Both the position numbers and the translations under genes were made by a program. From Halostagnicola larsenii XH-48 (lineage in GTDB: Archaea > Halobacteriota > Halobacteria > Halobacteriales > Natrialbaceae), in assembly GCF_000517625.1 (NCBI RefSeq), contig NZ_CP007055.1, forward strand, positions 2,666,001-2,730,000: 64,000 nucleotides of DNA, given 5' to 3'. Below are positions 35,866 through 63,632 of the stretch, piece by piece (position 1 is the stretch's first letter; each line of letters begins with the position of its first letter). The notes beneath the pieces are model-generated. The model was not told the origin of the DNA. It saw only the letters and a list, made by a program, of their open reading frames with translations, and searched no databases.

Positions 35866-37473
35866 TTAGCTGAACTTCTGGACGGTTACGTCGAGCGTGT
35901 CGAGATCGACGATCGGCGCGTAGCCGGCGTCGGGGTCGATGTTGACGCTCTTCTGGAAATCCGTCTGGGCCTGCCAGCATCCGGAGTTGATCGCGAGTAC
36001 GTTGTGGTACTTGCCGAAGCCGAGTTTGTGGACGTGGCCGGTGTGAAAAATGTCGGGGACGTCTTCGATAATCAGGTAATCTTCCTTCTCGGGAGCGAGC
36101 CTCGTGTGACCGCCGAACTGCGGGGCGACGTGGCGCTTTTTGAGGAGGTGGTACATCGCTTTGTGCGGTTCGTCGTAGTTCGCCTTCTCCTCGGGCAGTT
36201 CAGCGATCACTTCGTCGAGGCTGACGCCGTGATACATCAGGACCGAGACTCCCTCGAGGGTAACCGTCGAGGGATTGCTCACGATCCGCGGATCGTGGGC
36301 GGACATGATGTTTCGGAGGCGCTCGTCGAATCCCGGCTGGGGCTCTGCGAGTCGGACCGCGTCGTGGTTTCCCGGAATCATCACGATATCTAAATCGCCG
36401 GGTACCCGTTTGAGACACTCGTTGAACGCCTCGTACTGGTCGTAGATGTCGACGATGTCGAGTTCCTCGTCCTGATCCGGATAGACGCCGACGCCCTCGA
36501 CCATGTCGCCGGCGAGCAACAGGTACTCGACGTGCTGGGCCTCTTCGGTGTGCAGCCAGTCCGCAAATCGGTTCCAGGCGTCCGCCATGAACTCCTGGCT
36601 GCCCACGTGGACGTCGCTGATGAGCGCGGCCTGAACGTGGCGGTCCGCGGTGGACGGTTCGTACGTCCGCGGCACGTCCGGAAACGACATCGAGTCGACG
36701 AACGCGATGCCCGAATCGTCCGCCAGCGTCCCCTCCATCGCCAGCACCTCGTCGCAGAGCAACTCCTCGACGAGGTCGGCGTACTCCCTGTCTTTCATCA
36801 CCAGCCACGGGAACGTCCCGGTCGCGTCCTCGAGTTCGATCAGCCAGTGCCCGCTCGCGGTCGAGCGAATGTCGTTGACGAGTCCGACCATCGCCGCCTC
36901 GCTCCCGCCCGGCATGCTCTGGATGGCGGAGGCCGGACGATGGTTGAACCGACCGCGAAGTTTCGACCCCAACCGCTCGAGTCGGTCGCGAAAGACGGCG
37001 ACGAAGTCCTTGTACTCGCCCGTTCCAGTACTCTCACCGGTCATATCGTTCGCGATCTCGAGCGAGCGTCTCGAGATGTCGCTCGACCGCTCGATGTGGT
37101 CGACAGACCCCTCCGTTTCAACTGGAGGATCGGTCCTCGGTGTGGGTGACGGTTGGGAGGGGTCTCCAGTCGAAACGGAGGGGTTGTTCTGCGGCCGGTC
37201 TGTGGAATCGTCTCCGTCCCTCGAAGGATTGGATGGGGGCGATTCGCTCGATACTGGCGATGATTCGCTCGAGGCCGGCGTCGACTCCTCGAGAACCGCT
37301 CGAACGTGCTCCGTGCGCACGACCAGCGTTCTCTCGGGTAGCTGCTCGACGACCTGCTCGAGGGTCGGCTGTGGTCGCTCCGCGGCGGCGATGAGGGTCA
37401 CGGCCTCGCGCTCTGCGTTGTACCCGCGGGTGGTCAATTCGCTGACGATCCGGGCCGGACCCTCGAGTGGCAC
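35866..37473 (-). CDS. polD1: DNA polymerase D small subunit (DP1, 3'-5' exonuclease)
   Basis: 535 aa small subunit of the archaeal replicative polymerase D. The Mre11-like phosphoesterase motifs are all present: LISDVHVGSQEF, LLAGDMVEGVG, MIPGNHDAV, LMYHGV, FGGHTRLAPE and HTGHVHKLG, so the proofreading nuclease should be active. The OB-fold region precedes it. Residues 62-150 are a Ser/Pro/Asp-rich disordered linker, whose DNA holds two ORB-like boxes (37107-37128 and 37163-37184). The start is GTG 37473, giving the family-typical MPLEGPARIV. It shares a 102-bp divergent promoter region with the signal peptidase gene. Confidence 0.93.
   Translation of the reverse strand: MPLEGPARIVSELTTRGYNAEREAVTLIAAAERPQPTLEQVVEQLPERTLVVRTEHVRAVLEESTPASSESSPVSSESPPSNPSRDGDDSTDRPQNNPSVSTGDPSQPSPTPRTDPPVETEGSVDHIERSSDISRRSLEIANDMTGESTGTGEYKDFVAVFRDRLERLGSKLRGRFNHRPASAIQSMPGGSEAAMVGLVNDIRSTASGHWLIELEDATGTFPWLVMKDREYADLVEELLCDEVLAMEGTLADDSGIAFVDSMSFPDVPRTYEPSTADRHVQAALISDVHVGSQEFMADAWNRFADWLHTEEAQHVEYLLLAGDMVEGVGVYPDQDEELDIVDIYDQYEAFNECLKRVPGDLDIVMIPGNHDAVRLAEPQPGFDERLRNIMSAHDPRIVSNPSTVTLEGVSVLMYHGVSLDEVIAELPEEKANYDEPHKAMYHLLKKRHVAPQFGGHTRLAPEKEDYLIIEDVPDIFHTGHVHKLGFGKYHNVLAINSGCWQAQTDFQKSVNIDPDAGYAPIVDLDTLDVTVQKFS
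37107..37128 (-). promoter_or_regulatory. ORB-like Orc1 box inside polD1
   Basis: On the minus strand, CTCCAGTTGAAACGGAGGGG. It matches the haloarchaeal ORB pattern TCCAGTSGAAACNRAGGGG. It encodes PVETEG in the disordered linker of DP1. Confidence 0.6.
37163..37184 (+). promoter_or_regulatory. ORB-like Orc1 box inside polD1, opposite orientation
   Basis: CTCCAGTCGAAACGGAGGGG on the plus strand, 34 bp from the previous box. The two are arranged outward-facing, as in the main origin. The minus strand reads as SVSTG in the DP1 linker. Confidence 0.6.
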
Positions 37474-38877: not shown

Positions 38878-40956
38878 CTAGTTTTCGAACCGCGCCTGCA
38901 CGAACGGCTGGATATCGTCGATATCGCTCAGTCTCGAGTCGCTCAGTAAGACGGCCTCCGTCTCCTCGAGTGGAACGGAGAGGCTGATCTCCTTGGTCCG
39001 GCCGTACCGTCCCTTCGAGACGACGACCGCGTTTACGATCCCGAGCATGTCGAGTTCGCTGATGAGGTCCGTCACGCGCCGCTGGGTGAGCACGTCGGCG
39101 TCGATCTCCTCGCAGAGGCGCTTGTAAATGTTGAACACTTCGCCCGTGTTGATGCTTTTGACGCCGTGTTTCTCGAGCGAGATGATCGAGAAAAGGACGA
39201 GTTTGCTCTGGGTAGGTAACGTTCGAACGACTTCGACGACCCGATCGAGTTCGATCTTGTCCTGGGCCTGTCGGACGTGTTCCTCGACGATGGTTTCCGA
39301 TTGGGACCGCTCGGCGAGTTCGCCCGCCGTTCGAAGGAGATCAAGCGCGCGACGCGCGTCGCCGTGTTCCTGGGCGGCAAAGGCCGCACACAACGGGATC
39401 ACGTCACCCGAGAGCGCACCGCCTTTGAACGCGACCTCCGAGCGGTGCTGGAGGATATCGCGCAGCTGGTTCGCGTCGTAGGGCGGGAAGACGATCTCTT
39501 CTTCGCCCAGACTCGACTTGACGCGCGGATCGAGAAAGTCAGTGAACTTCAGGTCGTTCGAAATACCGATGATCGAGACGCGAGAGTTCTCGAGTTCGGA
39601 GTTCATCCGCGAAAGGTTATAGAGCGTATCGTCGCCGCTTTTCTCGACGAGTTTGTCGATCTCGTCGAGCATGATGACGACGACCCGTTCTGAGTAATCG
39701 ACCGCATCGAAAAAGACGCTGTAGACCCGATCGGTCGGCCACCCGGTCATCGGAACCTCCTCGAAGGACTCCTTGTCTTCTTCGAGTTTCGCGATCCGAT
39801 CCTCGACGTCCTCGAGCGAGTCGAACGGTGTCGACTCGAGGGGGTGCTCGACGATACCGGTCGACGGCTCCCCGTCACCGGATTCGAACCCCTCAGTTTC
39901 GACTGGAGAATCGTCCGACGAAAGGTCGATATCCGACTCATCCGAGTCGCGGTCAGCAGCGGTCATAGCTGGATCGAGAGATGAAGTCGAATCGGGGGAT
40001 GAAGTCGAATCAGGACTTGAAGTCGAGTTGGGATTTGAACTGGAATTCGACCGTGCGCGCGAAGAAGTCGCTTCATCGCTCTGGTGAGCCCCAGCGTTCA
40101 CCGAGTCATCTGACTTGTCGGAGTCGCCGCCCGAAGAGTCGTCGGTATCGAAGTTCGGGCCATCCGCCGCCGATATGCTAGTTTGCTCGGTCGTCACGTT
40201 ACTCGATCCAGCGACGTCGTCGTGATCCATCGCCGAATCTGCCGACGAGGGGCTTGGAGCGGTCTCATCCGATGCGTTCGAATCGGTTGGATTCGCGTCC
40301 GTCGTCGACCGATTGCTCTCCGTTCCCGTATTCGCCCCTGGGTCAGCGCTCGAGGCGAGTCCCGCTTGGTGTTGCGTACTCGAAATATCCTCGGATGATT
40401 GTCCACGTCCCGTGTCCGAATCGTGGCCGCGGTCGAATTCCTCGACCGACTCGATGAGCGATCGGAGTTCGGCGATGCGCGTTTCGATCCGGTCTTCGTT
40501 CTCTTCGATGAACTTGTTCGCGAGTTGTGCGAGCACCCGATACTGCGTATCGGTCACTTCGCAGTTGATGTACTCGACGTCGCAGGGAACGCTGTATTTC
40601 GACGACGTGCTTTCGAGTTCCTTGCTCACGAATTTTGCGCTCGCGGTCTTTCCCGTTCCCGTCTTGCCGTAGATCAGGATGTTCGAGGGGGTTTCCCCAC
40701 GCAACGCGGCGACGAGGATCGTCGCCATCTTGTTGATCTGGTCGCTCCGGTGGGGGAGTTCATGTGGCGTGTACGATGGTCTGAGAACCTCCTTGTTCTC
40801 GAAGATTGGCTCACCGCTCAACAGATCGTCGAACAGACCCTGGTTCGGCTCGTCGTCGCCGAGATTGGATCCTTTCAACTCGGTAGAGAACCCGTCAGGG
40901 CCTCCGAGTTCGACGTTTCGGTCCGAATCCGTCATATCTAATTCGTCGTCAGACAT
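38878..40956 (-). CDS. orc1: Orc1/Cdc6 origin-binding protein with a ~200-aa disordered insertion
   Basis: 692 aa; the usual length is about 370-520. The AAA+ core has Walker A GKTGTGKT (97-104), Walker B VVIMLDEIDKL (about 426-436), sensor 1 GISND and an arginine finger region, then a C-terminal winged helix (QSKLVLFSIISLEKHG to TDLISELDMLG). Between helix 3 and Walker B, residues about 175-375 are low-complexity Ser/Asp/Thr/Glu with an 18-bp DNA repeat (STSSPD units). ATG 40956. It lies beside the non-coding origin and the conserved origin-associated genes, as in oriC1 of other haloarchaea, so this is likely the primary initiator. Confidence 0.93.
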   Translation of the reverse strand: MSDDELDMTDSDRNVELGGPDGFSTELKGSNLGDDEPNQGLFDDLLSGEPIFENKEVLRPSYTPHELPHRSDQINKMATILVAALRGETPSNILIYGKTGTGKTASAKFVSKELESTSSKYSVPCDVEYINCEVTDTQYRVLAQLANKFIEENEDRIETRIAELRSLIESVEEFDRGHDSDTGRGQSSEDISSTQHQAGLASSADPGANTGTESNRSTTDANPTDSNASDETAPSPSSADSAMDHDDVAGSSNVTTEQTSISAADGPNFDTDDSSGGDSDKSDDSVNAGAHQSDEATSSRARSNSSSNPNSTSSPDSTSSPDSTSSLDPAMTAADRDSDESDIDLSSDDSPVETEGFESGDGEPSTGIVEHPLESTPFDSLEDVEDRIAKLEEDKESFEEVPMTGWPTDRVYSVFFDAVDYSERVVVIMLDEIDKLVEKSGDDTLYNLSRMNSELENSRVSIIGISNDLKFTDFLDPRVKSSLGEEEIVFPPYDANQLRDILQHRSEVAFKGGALSGDVIPLCAAFAAQEHGDARRALDLLRTAGELAERSQSETIVEEHVRQAQDKIELDRVVEVVRTLPTQSKLVLFSIISLEKHGVKSINTGEVFNIYKRLCEEIDADVLTQRRVTDLISELDMLGIVNAVVVSKGRYGRTKEISLSVPLEETEAVLLSDSRLSDIDDIQPFVQARFEN
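39888..39908 (-). promoter_or_regulatory. ORB-like box inside orc1
   Basis: CTCCAGTCGAAACTGAGGGG on the minus strand. It encodes PVETEG in the disordered insertion, the same peptide as in DP1. Confidence 0.55.
39970..40045. repeat. 18-bp tandem repeats in the orc1 insertion
   Basis: About four units of GATGAAGTCGAATCNGGN with 18-bp spacing, encoding SSPDST-type hexapeptides. They look like slippage expansion of coding DNA. Confidence 0.65.
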
Positions 40957-40978
40957 TCGTCGTGCGTACACCCCGTCA

Positions 40979-40990
40979 TTTCGAGTGGAA
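40979..40990 (-). promoter_or_regulatory. ORB half-site near the orc1 start
   Basis: TTTCGAGTGGAA on the plus strand, 23 bp upstream of the orc1 ATG. It shares 11 bases with units of the 24-bp array. It could let Orc1 control its own gene (inference). Confidence 0.4.
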
Positions 40991-41605: not shown

Positions 41606-41710
41606 CAGTAATCGGGCTGTAGTGAACTGTATATGGGTTGTGGTGGGCTGTATGCGGGCTGTGGTAGGCTGTATTCGAGATGTAGTGGACTGTATAGCTG
41701 ATCTAGTTGC
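41606..41710. repeat. 21-bp degenerate tandem array left of the left ORB (origin iterons)
   Basis: Consecutive 21-bp units begin at 41606, 41627, 41648, 41669 and 41690. Each starts CTGTAT (or close) followed by a base and CGGGCTGT, and ends GTGG. The first four are well conserved and the fifth is degenerate. The spacing is exactly two helical turns. Array and left ORB are separated by about 30-45 bp. It could also be read as a seven-residue coding repeat, but no plausible gene contains it. Confidence 0.75.
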
Positions 41711-41740: not shown

Positions 41741-41766
41741 CCCCCCACCCCTTCGTTTCAGGTGGA
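41741..41766 (-). promoter_or_regulatory. Left origin recognition box (full ORB)
   Basis: Minus strand: CTCCACCTGAAACGAAGGGG then TGGGGGG. Full ORB including the long G-string, which points leftward, away from the AT-rich core. Confidence 0.88.
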
Positions 41767-42060: not shown

Positions 42061-42086
42061 CTCCAGTCGAAACAAAGGGGTGGGGG
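42061..42086 (+). promoter_or_regulatory. Right origin recognition box (full ORB)
   Basis: CTCCAGTCGAAACAAAGGGG then TGGGGGA. A full ORB on the plus strand with the G-string pointing rightward, inverted relative to the left ORB. Confidence 0.9.
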
Positions 42087-42255
42087 ATCAGCCGGAAATA
42101 CTAGTATGGTTCTAGTACTCATACAATTACCTCGCTACCCGAGTACTCGTGACCTTCCCAGTCAACCACAGTCCTTCTCGTTTTCACGGGTCTGGAACCA
42201 TATCGACTCTCGAGCGAGAGATATTCGTCTCCGTTCTCGATTTCACGCACCTCTC

Positions 42256-42326
42256 TTTCGAGTGGGTCTATTCCGACTGTTTCGGGGGGTCTACTCCATC
42301 TGTTTCGAGTGGATTTATTCCGACTG
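42256..42326. repeat. Three 23-24-bp direct repeats of ORB half-sites
   Basis: Units at 42256-42279, 42280-42302 and 42303-42326. Each begins TTTCGAGTGG or a variant, resembling the inner ORB motif TTTCGACTGGA without its G-string, and ends CCGACTG or CCATCTG. They lie about 170 bp right of the right ORB. Confidence 0.65.
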
Positions 42327-42548
42327 TGTGCTCGAGTTAGCACGTTAGGATGTCGATCAAGAAATTCTCCTTCGTGTGGACTTATCCGGACACTCTCCTT
42401 TCGTCTGTTTTCCGGTCCCGCATCCAACAGTATCGCAGATCGTTACTCTCCTTGTTGTTGGATATTCAATACGTCTGACGTAGGCTTAAGTGAGTTCAGT
42501 TCCGTAGTACGCGCAGATGCACCCATATGGTGCTGGAGGCCCCCTAGG

Positions 42549-43193: not shown

Positions 43194-43604
43194 ATGCCCA
43201 AAGCAACGAACGCGGACGACGGAGACGGACCGGAGAGCCCCGACGGTGTCCAGATCGATCTCATCAGCGGCGAACGAATGGAAGGGATGGCCAGCATGGA
43301 GAAGATCCGGATGATCCTCGACGGCGTCCACGACGGCAATATCGTCATCCTCGAGGAAGGCCTTTCGCCCGACGAGGAGAGTCGCCTCATCGAGGTAACG
43401 ATGGCCGAAATTAGTCCCGACGAGTTCAACGGGATCGAGATCGAAACCTACCCGAAATCGAGTACGGGAAATTCCTCGATTCTCGGCCGGATTATGGGTA
43501 ACAACGAGTCGGCAAACAAACTCACCGTTATCGGTCCGGCCAACCAGATCGAAACACTCCACAAGGACGAAACGCTCATCAGCGCGCTCGTCAGCCGTAA
43601 CTAA
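43194..43604 (+). CDS. DUF2073 origin-associated protein
   Basis: 136 aa. The conserved segment runs from GVQIDLISGERMEGMASMEKIRMILDG (split here: IDLISGERM, then MEKIRMILDGVHDGNIVI) through VTMAEISPDEFNGIEIETYP to NNESANKLTVIGPA. This is the euryarchaeal DUF2073 family, nearly always next to the Era-like GTPase. Nucleic-acid binding has been suggested for related proteins, but I cannot show it. Its stop overlaps the next start (TAATG). Confidence 0.88.
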   Translation: MPKATNADDGDGPESPDGVQIDLISGERMEGMASMEKIRMILDGVHDGNIVILEEGLSPDEESRLIEVTMAEISPDEFNGIEIETYPKSSTGNSSILGRIMGNNESANKLTVIGPANQIETLHKDETLISALVSRN

Positions 43605-44791
43605 TGCCCCATCAGTGTACGAACTGCGGCCGAACGTTCCCCGACGGTTCGAAGGAGATGCTCTCTGGTTGTCCCGACTGCGGCGGCAACAAGTTCCAGT
43701 TTGCGCCCTCCTCGGCGGCCGATGCGAATTCTCCCACTAATTCGCCGGACAACTCGAGGACCCCGCCCGAGCGACCGACCGGCGAGTCGGCCGACAGCGT
43801 CGCTGCTCGAGCGGCTGAATCGGTTCGTGATTTCGTCTCGACTGGATCGGATTCTTCGAGCGGTGAGGCTCGCAGCTCTGATCAACATGGTGGAGAGAGC
43901 GCTGAAACCAACGTTTCGGGACAGCAAGCGGTCGACGTTGAGGCCAGTTCGAAAACAGAATCTGGCGACACCTCACAGAAACCAACGGCCGACGAGCCCA
44001 CCCAGAACGCAACTGACGAGTCCACCCAGAACGCAACCGACGAACCCATCCAGAACACAAAAACGGATGAGACCGCTCGGAACACGGTTTCCGACTGGAC
44101 GACAGCGAGCGAAAGCGACGATGTTCCGTCCTCGAGCGGGGAGTTTCCAGAGTGGCCCGACTCCGCTCGACCGCCTGAGGACCGATCTACTGCGCCGTCG
44201 AAGGATCCATCGACCGCCACTTCTTCGTCTGCGGACGCGTCTGTACCCAGTGGTGTCACCGACGCCACTTCCGCATCCGACTCGTCTGCATCCGACTCGT
44301 CTTCTAAGTCGCAGGACCCGCAGGATTCGAGCGGTGACACGGATGAGAATCGGCCCCGCTCAGATGAGTCGACAACAGCGGAGCCGACAACAACGGAGCC
44401 GGCACAATCCGAACAGGCCGAACAGACCGAAACGGAACCCATTGAGAGCGAAACGGAACCCATCGAGAGCGAGGATACGGCCCAGGCAAGCGCCAGAAGC
44501 GATGTCGTCCAGACCGACGAACTCCCGGATTCTTCGGAGCCGATCGAGGACGCCACCGCGCCGGATCACGGCCGAGTCGTAAGCGAACCGACCGGAGAAC
44601 AACCGTCGCTCGAGGAGCTTCGTGCTGAGCTCAACGAACAGTTCGAGAGCATCAAAATCCTCAAACCGGGTCAGTACGAGTTGAATCTGATGGAACTGTA
44701 CAACCGCGAGGAGTACATTATCTCGCTGCAGGAGGACGGCCGATACGTCATCGACGTTCCTGACTCCTGGCGGGATGGCGACGGGGAGTAA
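43604..44791 (+). CDS. Origin-associated zinc-ribbon protein with ~300-aa disordered linker
   Basis: 395 aa. A zinc ribbon at the N-terminus uses C5, C8, C23 and C26. Residues about 37-335 are low-complexity Ser/Thr/Asp/Glu/Gln with internal repeats (TQNATDES, SASDSSASDS, TEPIESE). A conserved C-terminal piece (about 335-395: LEELRAELNEQFESIKILKP, YELNLMELYNREEYIISL) ends the protein. The third member of the origin-associated set. The linker length is exceptional and parallels the insertions in Orc1, DP1 and the signal peptidase. Confidence 0.85.
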   Translation: MPHQCTNCGRTFPDGSKEMLSGCPDCGGNKFQFAPSSAADANSPTNSPDNSRTPPERPTGESADSVAARAAESVRDFVSTGSDSSSGEARSSDQHGGESAETNVSGQQAVDVEASSKTESGDTSQKPTADEPTQNATDESTQNATDEPIQNTKTDETARNTVSDWTTASESDDVPSSSGEFPEWPDSARPPEDRSTAPSKDPSTATSSSADASVPSGVTDATSASDSSASDSSSKSQDPQDSSGDTDENRPRSDESTTAEPTTTEPAQSEQAEQTETEPIESETEPIESEDTAQASARSDVVQTDELPDSSEPIEDATAPDHGRVVSEPTGEQPSLEELRAELNEQFESIKILKPGQYELNLMELYNREEYIISLQEDGRYVIDVPDSWRDGDGE

Positions 44792-44880
44792 CTCTGCCCT
44801 CTGTTTCAACTCCAACAGCCCATCGATCGATTTCCGTCTATTGGGGTTGCATTTCCGCATCTAACTCCTTTAGGCTGTGG

Positions 44881-44903
44881 TTCCAGTCGAAATAGAGGGG
44901 GTC
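44881..44903 (+). promoter_or_regulatory. ORB-like box downstream of the origin operon
   Basis: TTCCAGTCGAAATAGAGGGG then GTC. One C-to-T change within the GAAAC core. Paired with a weaker inverted box at 44797-44815. Confidence 0.55.
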
Positions 44904-46998: not shown

Positions 46999-47120
46999 GA
47001 ATCTGTCGGTCGATTCCTCACGGCGTTCTGGAACGGCACGTCGATACAGGGTGTCGCCGTACCAACTGGCAGGTCGGGTGATGCGAACGCGTTTTGTCTT
47101 TCGCTCCGTACTGTCGTCAC

Positions 47121-47801
47121 ATGAGCGTTCGCGAGGAGTTCGACGAGTGGGCGACCGATGGCCGCGACAGAGGGATGGAGGAGCGACACTGGCACACTGC
47201 AAAGCACGCGCTCGCGAGGATGCCAGTCGAGTCCGGCGATATCGTCCTCGACCTCGGCTGTGGAAGCGGGTACGCCGGCCGTGCGATTCGAGACACCAAC
47301 GACGCAGGTCGCGTTTACGGACTCGATGGATCGCCCGAGATGGCGTCTAACGCCACGGAGTACACGGACGACCCTCGAGTCGCGTTCGTCGTCGGCGATT
47401 TCGGTTCGCTGCCGTTCGAGACGAACTCGATCGATCACGTTTGGTCGATGGAAGCGTTCTATTACGCGGCAGATCCCCACGAAACCCTCGAGGAAATCGC
47501 CCGCGTGCTCGCGCCGGGTGGCACGTTCTACTGCGCCGTGAACTATTACGAGGAAAACGTCCACTCACACGAGTGGCAGGAGTTCATCACCGTCGAGATG
47601 ACCCGCTGGTCTCGCGAGCAGTACCGAGAGGCGTTCCGAAACGCGGGCCTTTCGGTTGCGGCCCAGGACAACATTCCGGACCGCGAAATCACGATCCCGA
47701 ACGAAGCCGAGTTCCCGATCGACGACTGGGAGAATCGCGAGGCGATGGTCGAACGGTATCGGGAGTACGGCACCCTGCTCACGGTCGGCGTCGCGACCTG
47801 A
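47121..47801 (+). CDS. SAM-dependent methyltransferase (class I)
   Basis: 226 aa. Motif I is VLDLGCGSGYAGR (about 43-55), motif II YGLDGSPEM, motif IV SIDHVWSMEAFYYAADP, and post-motif LAPGGTFYCAVNYYEEN. This is the Methyltransf_11 type, similar to UbiE-like small-molecule methyltransferases. The C-terminal part is atypical and gives no substrate. ATG 47121 is preferred. The upstream metal-repressor-like site suggests control by iron or manganese. Confidence 0.85.
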   Translation: MSVREEFDEWATDGRDRGMEERHWHTAKHALARMPVESGDIVLDLGCGSGYAGRAIRDTNDAGRVYGLDGSPEMASNATEYTDDPRVAFVVGDFGSLPFETNSIDHVWSMEAFYYAADPHETLEEIARVLAPGGTFYCAVNYYEENVHSHEWQEFITVEMTRWSREQYREAFRNAGLSVAAQDNIPDREITIPNEAEFPIDDWENREAMVERYREYGTLLTVGVAT

Positions 47802-47829
47802 TCGCACCGAATCTCGTAAACCGCATCGA

Positions 47830-47849
47830 ACCCCTCGATTTCCACTCGA
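47830..47849 (-). promoter_or_regulatory. ORB-like box (weaker)
   Basis: Minus strand: CTCGAGTGGAAATCGAGGGG. Two to three differences from the ORB consensus. Confidence 0.4.
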
Positions 47850-47949
47850 GCGCGTTGTTATCACCCCGTATCGGCGAGGTACGTATCGTTGTTGTTGTTT
47901 CGTTCCACATCCGTTCGACCCGAAATGGTCCTCGTTTCGCGACGAATCC

Positions 47950-48012
47950 GCATTGTATGCGAGTTCTGGTGCATTGTATGCGAGTTCTGGTGCATTGTAT
48001 GCGAGTTCTCGA
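47950..48012. repeat. 21-bp tandem array, three near-perfect copies
   Basis: Copies start at 47950, 47971 and 47992; the first two are identical and the third differs only in its last bases. In the register starting TTGTAT the unit reads TTGTATGCG, then AGTTCTGGTGCA. It matches the 21-bp origin unit at about 14-15 of 21 positions in the same register. Confidence 0.85.
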
Positions 48013-48054
48013 GCCACAAACAATGCCGGAGAGTTCTCGAGCGTCGAAGATCGC

Positions 48055-48076
48055 TCCCCCTCTCGTTTCCGGTCGA
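48055..48076 (-). promoter_or_regulatory. ORB-like box of the second module
   Basis: Minus strand: TCGACCGGAAACGAGAGGGG then GA. GAAAC core and G-string preserved; one extra base between them compared with the origin ORBs. Confidence 0.45.
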
Positions 48077-48094
48077 AACTCCTTCGAGAGACGG

Positions 48095-48673
48095 CTACTG
48101 TTCGAATCGCTCGCCCGCTGGAATCGTCACCTCGAGCCAGTTCTCCTCGGGCGGGAGCGGACAGTCGAACGTCTCGCTGTAGGCACAAAACGGCGTGTAT
48201 GCGAGATTCAGATCCAGAACGAGTTCGTCGCCGTCCTCGAGGTCCTGATCGGGCGCGAGTTCCATATACCGACCGCCGCCGTAGGTCTGCTGTCCCGTCG
48301 TCTTGTCCCGGAACGGGATAAAAAGCGGCTCTTCTTCGGGTCGTTCCATCTGGTAGGCCGCTAGTTCGTAGGTACCGTCCGCCAGATCCGGATCGTCGCG
48401 CTCGAGGTTGAACGAGAGCGTGACGACCCGAAGATATCGAACCTCTCGCCCCGTCGTCGTATCCATCGTGACGGGCTCTGGGTCGTCGTGGACGGTCGCA
48501 CTTGCGTGTACGCGATACTCGGCATTCGGCTCGAAATATTCGAGGCCCGAGAAATCCTCGCGTTCTTCGGGCGGGATCGGCGACTGGGGATGGTCGGCGA
48601 AGAACTCGTCTTTCTCGGCGCGCTTTTCCTCGAGTTTCACACGCCACGTGTCGACATCGAACGAATCGCTCAT
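48095..48673 (-). CDS. DUF1684 family protein
   Basis: 192 aa. The DUF1684 pattern is clear: WRVKLEEKRAEKDEFFADHPQSPIP near the start (split: WRVKLEEKRAEKDEF, then HPQSPIP), GGGRYMELAP near 135, and LDLNLAYTPFCAYSE then CPLPPEENWLEVTIPAGE at the end. The conserved Tyr-Cys-rich end suggests an enzyme, but its reaction is unknown. Convergent with the methyltransferase. Confidence 0.92.
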   Translation of the reverse strand: MSDSFDVDTWRVKLEEKRAEKDEFFADHPQSPIPPEEREDFSGLEYFEPNAEYRVHASATVHDDPEPVTMDTTTGREVRYLRVVTLSFNLERDDPDLADGTYELAAYQMERPEEEPLFIPFRDKTTGQQTYGGGRYMELAPDQDLEDGDELVLDLNLAYTPFCAYSETFDCPLPPEENWLEVTIPAGERFEQ

Positions 48674-63177: not shown

Positions 63178-63632
63178 ATCCGCTCTTCTCGTTCTATCGC
63201 AATAAGTCTATCTCGAGATAAAATTATTGATTCAAGCGGTGAGGCGATCGAATAGAGGGCTCCGAGCCGCCACGAACGATGAAACTGAACCGCTTCCCGG
63301 CGACGATTCGGTGTCCGGCCTATCCGCGCTGTGGCGATCCCGTGTTAGTCGTCACCAGCACCGGGCCGACGACCAACCGATCCCACCCCCTGTGGCTGTC
63401 GCGTTGGTGATCCGTCGCTTGAGCACTCGTCGACCGAATGTGCTCGAGTCACCCGGTCGAACCCCTTCGTTTCGCCTCGAACGTTCTTCGAACCCCCTCG
63501 TTTCGACTCGAAAGTTCCGGCGAAAAAGACCCGTTCTGACGATAGTTCGGACCTACAGCCGATGTTGACAGAACCTAGCTGCAGGTCGCCAGACAGTAGC
63601 ACGCATCGAGTGACGGCGAGGTTCGAACTGGA
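63178..63632. other. 455-bp gap with two ORB-like direct repeats
   Basis: Contains the HTH promoter near 63200-63230 (AT-rich, AAAATTATTG on the plus strand) and the ORB-like boxes at 63459-63510. Several ORFs cross it without a family look. Confidence 0.4.
63459..63510 (-). repeat. Two GAAACGAAGGGG-type direct repeats, 30 bp apart
   Basis: Minus strand: GAGGCGAAACGAAGGGG (63462-63480) and GAGTCGAAACGAGGGGG (63492-63510). The GAAAC plus G-string of an ORB is kept but the TCCA start is replaced by CGAG. They face the same way, unlike an origin pair. Confidence 0.4.

Follow-up and report, generated by a model that had tools for sequence, protein, structure and literature searches.

Two ORB-like boxes lie about 6 kb from oriC1 of Halostagnicola larsenii XH-48, in a 293-bp gap between convergent genes, and on sequence comparison both belong to an origin-proximal field of ORB-like sites found in many haloarchaea. 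We put at about one in two the probability that these boxes are Orc1 sites within a field of satellite ORBs that titrates or buffers the initiator, with the 21-bp tandem array beside them having no necessary role. The features of the window, that is, the whole stretch of 64,000 nucleotides that was analysed, are collected in Table 1.

Table 1. Genes, boxes and arrays discussed in the text, with scores from the oriC-trained matrix.
Feature	Position	Strand	Score or source	Remark
PolD small-subunit gene	35866-37473	-		Holds inverted ORB pair
Inverted ORB pair, left half	37108..37126	+	26.6	Inside PolD small-subunit gene
Inverted ORB pair, right half	37165..37183	-	27.5	Inside PolD small-subunit gene
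orc1 (Orc1/Cdc6 initiator)	38878..40971	-	Domain calls	Cdc6_C and AAA domains
ORB-like box within orc1	39889..39907	+	22.6	Coding sequence, variable linker
ORB-like box at orc1 5' end	40971..40989	+	24.3	Conserved position
Origin 21-bp array	41613..41696	+	TRF	4 imperfect copies; species-specific
oriC1 left ORB	41748..41766	+	26.4	Extended C-string upstream
oriC1 right ORB	42062..42080	-	28.5	Inverted, with extended G-string
Weaker ORB-like box	44796..44814	+	18.6	3' of OapC gene
ORB-like box	44882..44900	-	25.0	3' of OapC gene
Methyltransferase gene	47094-47801	+		Left flank of gap
Gap between convergent genes	47802..48094	.	Gene calls	293 bp
Second ORB-like box CCCCTCGATTTCCACTCGA	47831..47849	+	21.1	Conserved one of the two
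Gap array, three tandem 21-bp units GCATTGTATGCGAGTTCTGGT	47950..48012	+	TRF	Third unit ends CTCGA; species-specific
ORB-like box CCCTCTCGTTTCCGGTCGA	48058..48076	+	20.0	2 mismatches to ORB pattern
DUF1684 gene	48095-48673	-		Right flank of gap
Tandem ORB-like pair	63462..63511 (63462-63480 and 63493-63511)	+	26.5 and 28.3

ORB-like boxes between the methyltransferase and DUF1684 genes

The earlier note had placed an ORB-like box beside a tandem array between convergent genes, and both the setting and the box are borne out: the neighbours are a methyltransferase gene and a DUF1684 gene, in an order kept in 22 other genomes, and the GTTTC of the box starts at 48063. The scoring matrix was built from 90 oriC1 ORBs, all of other species, which themselves score from 12.1 to more than 28 (median 21.5), and the far background, taken as 340 kb of the same chromosome distant from oriC, reaches a maximum of 17.5. 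Both this box and a second one at 47831, which is absent from the earlier note and is the only conserved box of the gap, carry the ORB core and exceed that maximum (20.0 and 21.1, respectively). By these scores the gap boxes are real, non-random elements.

A box scoring at least 17 was identified in the orthologous gaps of 17 of the 22 relatives (18 of 23 when H. larsenii itself is counted), and shuffled gaps gave on average 0.8 gaps with any match of at least 9. Among the five relatives with boxless gaps, three have gaps of only 28-47 bp. The 48058 box was not seen at the same place in the gaps of same-genus genomes, and it may therefore have arisen together with the additional DNA in which the array lies. 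One genome called as the same genus (G002) has no gap box above 12, and there the GTPase, usually a neighbour of oriC, is not next to any oriC; in this single genome an ORB cluster with an inverted pair is located about 106 kb from the gap.

Since ORB-like boxes and a 21-bp array resembling in form those of oriC share one gap, an accessory or dormant origin built from array and ORB has been considered, but such an origin is very unlikely because the extended G-string and the unwinding region are absent from the gap. At oriC1, upstream of orc1, inverted ORBs flank an AT-rich stretch; the gap contains no inverted pair of strong ORBs, as both strong boxes are on the forward strand, and its AT content attains a 60-bp maximum of only 0.53 versus 0.68 in oriC. 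The sequences upstream of the gap boxes are gcatcgaa and gatcgctcc rather than the CCCCCCA of the extended halophile G-string, an element that is essential for oriC1 function in Haloarcula hispanica (PMC3936714). In addition, no orc/cdc6 gene directly adjoins the gap, and neither 21-bp array is conserved. An ORB-like box alone is no ground for calling an origin.

An origin-centred field of ORB-like sites

Whole genomes were searched with the pattern CCCCYTCRTTTCSASTSGA, allowing at most 2 mismatches. The H. larsenii genome contains 19 such sites: the 11 kb around oriC account for 9, and of the others only one lies farther than about 225 kb from it (chromosome C1 being treated as circular). In the window and the next 59 kb, 15 sites score about 20 or higher with the oriC-trained matrix. 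Across 15 genomes, 118 ORB-like sites were identified more than 2.5 kb from oriC, including 33 within 25 kb (1.6 expected), 59 within 100 kb (6.8 expected) and 86 within 200 kb (13.8 expected); the counts include G009 and G039, which have few near sites and whose oriC, placed solely on the basis of ORB clusters, is uncertain. In the 14 genomes other than H. larsenii the reversed control pattern matched once in total, and at 80 orc1 loci the pattern matched 586 times versus 0 for its reverse. Chance matching as a source of ORB-like sites is ruled out by the reversed-pattern and far-background controls.

The density of the field falls steeply within about 10 kb of oriC, and certain box positions recur across species, namely the orc1 5' end, the orc1 coding sequence, the DUF1684 gap and the pair in the PolD small-subunit gene. 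The distal boxes share the core of the oriC ORBs and have no CCCCCCA extension of the kind seen at oriC. This distribution also bears on the idea that convergent genes simply carry the boxes as gene-end signals of a generic kind, such as those for transcription 3' ends. Several boxes do occupy 3' intergenic space, and pyrimidine runs occur in the core; however, such signals would be spread genome-wide, whereas the boxes concentrate around oriC and several are inside coding sequence, so that this explanation is highly improbable and the origin-centred distribution rules out a generic gene-end signal.

The inverted pair in the PolD small-subunit gene was found in 62 of the named haloarchaeal loci, with a start-to-start spacing of 57 bp in 54 of the 62. 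Inside the pair, GTT accounts for 74% of valine codons versus 8% for the gene, and GGC is almost never used for glycine versus 50% for the gene; these unusual codons point to a constraint at the DNA level, although the comparison is somewhat biased because the boxes were picked by their DNA match. The pair thus appears to be a DNA signal embedded in a variable protein linker. The box in the variable-linker coding stretch of orc1 was seen in many relatives. A 57-bp inverted pair also occurs in G009, far from a presumed oriC whose assignment is uncertain.

Two further groups of boxes were noted in the window. The two boxes 3' of the OapC gene follow a region (43194-44791) in which the gene at 43604-44791 matches the Pfam family OapC (origin-associated protein), and together with the neighbouring GTPase gene it probably represents the known origin-associated cluster. 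The tandem pair at the far end of the window has its two boxes 31 bp apart, at a distance of 21 kb from oriC, and G003 has a comparable tandem pair about 24 kb from its oriC (C33:184331 and 184363).

Possible roles of the satellite boxes

Under the titration or buffering reading, the two gap boxes would be ORB-type sites for Orc1, the initiator of oriC1, and would belong to the satellite ORBs that in haloarchaea extend to about 200 kb from oriC1 on either side. With the ORB core kept but the extended G-string and unwinding region missing, such satellites are expected to be bound by Orc1 yet not to fire. As they would be copied soon after initiation, they could soak up Orc1 next to the new origins and so damp re-initiation. 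The box at the orc1 5' end could add a layer of autoregulation, which is suggested by its conserved position there.

It is plausible that titration or buffering, as proposed for the oriC2D region of Haloarcula, is the role that best fits the boxes. Initiator-type boxes were indeed found outside, but near, the origin, and G002, where no oriC adjoins the GTPase and the gap has no strong box, was counted in support. Counted on the other side were the five relatives without a gap box, the species specificity of the 48058 box and the G009 pair, as sites may in some cases be retained at a distance from the origin. The steep decay over about 10 kb counts against simple titration, which would need no such closeness.

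In Haloarcula hispanica the ORB-rich oriC2D, located downstream of cdc6E, negatively controls oriC2 (PMC3936714), and its restraint was attributed, probably, to titration of the initiator (PMC3936714; reviewed in PMC4010727). The H. larsenii boxes resemble oriC2D in being ORB elements that lie near an initiator gene but not in the origin itself. oriC2D, however, is one compact cluster beside cdc6E that serves oriC2, and its effect was shown genetically, whereas the H. larsenii boxes, single or in pairs, are of the oriC1 type and extend over tens to hundreds of kilobases, some of them within genes; the gap itself holds two boxes only and no dense many-box cluster at one locus. The boxes have the same core, CCCCYTCGTTTCNANTGGA, as the haloarchaeal oriC1 ORBs (PMC3528665, PMC3936714), but in the distal ones the extended G-string is missing, and so is the arrangement as an inverted pair on either side of an AT-rich region. 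As far as the E. coli datA locus and dispersed DnaA boxes are covered by their citation in PMC3936714, the likeness is that extra initiator sites near an origin could lower the free initiator, and the differences are that the proteins and sequences are unrelated and that datA is a single locus.

The main rival reads the field as a signal for the origin domain or for segregation, with Orc1 or another box-reading protein marking or bridging the origin region and the gap boxes being members of it. Bacterial parS sites likewise cluster near origins over a broad domain, and the ORB-like sites crowd the origin in a similar way. A cis-acting role in origin-domain marking or segregation (for example, by looping) would account for the steep local density no less well than titration, and for the decay within about 10 kb better than simple titration; moreover, the clustering within about 200 kb, the steep rise near oriC, the recurring positions and the precisely spaced inverted pair are more like a cis-acting mark spread over the region than like one titration cluster. 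On the other hand, the motif is the ORB of Orc1 itself, unlike in parS fields, no candidate partner protein was found, and we know of no ParB-type reader for an ORB-like motif. On balance a segregation signal is rather unlikely, and the gap, for which partition or loading had been proposed earlier, may be such a site.

ORBs and titration by means of ORBs are already known. No description of a dispersed, origin-centred field of oriC1 ORBs was found in the searchable literature, a search whose reach excluded most subscription papers, and looking for Haloferax ChIP-seq data on Orc1, or for ORBs that titrate an initiator, gave nothing beyond oriC2D. A broader and tentative proposal, which we would sooner doubt than accept, is that haloarchaeal chromosomes have a conserved field of Orc1 boxes on the scale of the chromosome, with oriC1 at its centre and part of it within the orc1 and PolD small-subunit coding sequences. 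This field would mark an origin domain linking the dosage of initiator to the duplication or segregation of the origin, as an archaeal counterpart of datA and parS combined. The archaeal safeguard against firing an origin twice is poorly known, and a conserved field with boxes at repeated positions offers concrete, deletable elements for testing initiator titration and origin-domain organisation in haloarchaea, which are tractable hosts for such tests.

The 21-bp arrays of the gap and the origin

For the gap array, the earlier note correctly described a perfect 21-bp tandem repeat (47950-48009, TRF score 120, 2.9 copies), the third unit of which has CTCGA at its end in place of CTGGT. Its proposal that array and box form a second copy of a module shared with the origin is weak: the gap array was absent from the orthologous gaps of 22 relatives, including four assigned to the same genus, and the origin array was not found in oriC of the same-genus genomes G001 and G003 or of the other readable relatives. 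Likewise, the suggested genome scan yielded zero further copies of the gap-array unit, at up to 3 mismatches, elsewhere in the 4.13-Mb H. larsenii genome. The shared module is thus unproven, and array and box need not form one unit. The gap array looks like a species-specific tandem duplication that presumably has no necessary role.

The reported likeness of the two arrays is as described, the consensuses being identical at 14 of 21 positions, in register, at the best of 42 alignments, and the gap array matching single origin copies at 13-15 of 21 (15 of 21 for two of the four). As a single planned test it would be suggestive, but it is statistically weak, as it was picked from 40 array rows in the window, and the proportion of shuffled array units that reach 14 of 21 (0.6%, P ~0.006) is given before correction for these 40 TRF rows. 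The spacing from array to GTTTC, put earlier at about 70 bp in the gap and about 65 bp in the origin, is roughly alike at the two loci, with measured values of 51 and 59 bp, respectively. The register, the two 15-of-21 matches, the shuffling result and the placement of both arrays 51-59 bp before an ORB would fit genuine paralogy, with one origin protein of this species bound by both arrays. However, the P value is uncorrected for the many arrays, both arrays are absent from all relatives examined, and haloarchaeal origins commonly contain short arrays of unrelated sequence, as seen in oriC of the relatives, so that true paralogy is quite improbable. A 23-bp repeat built on TTTCGAGTGG cores also occurs three times between oriC and the GTPase gene, at 42252-42327, and its copies have weak ORB-like scores.
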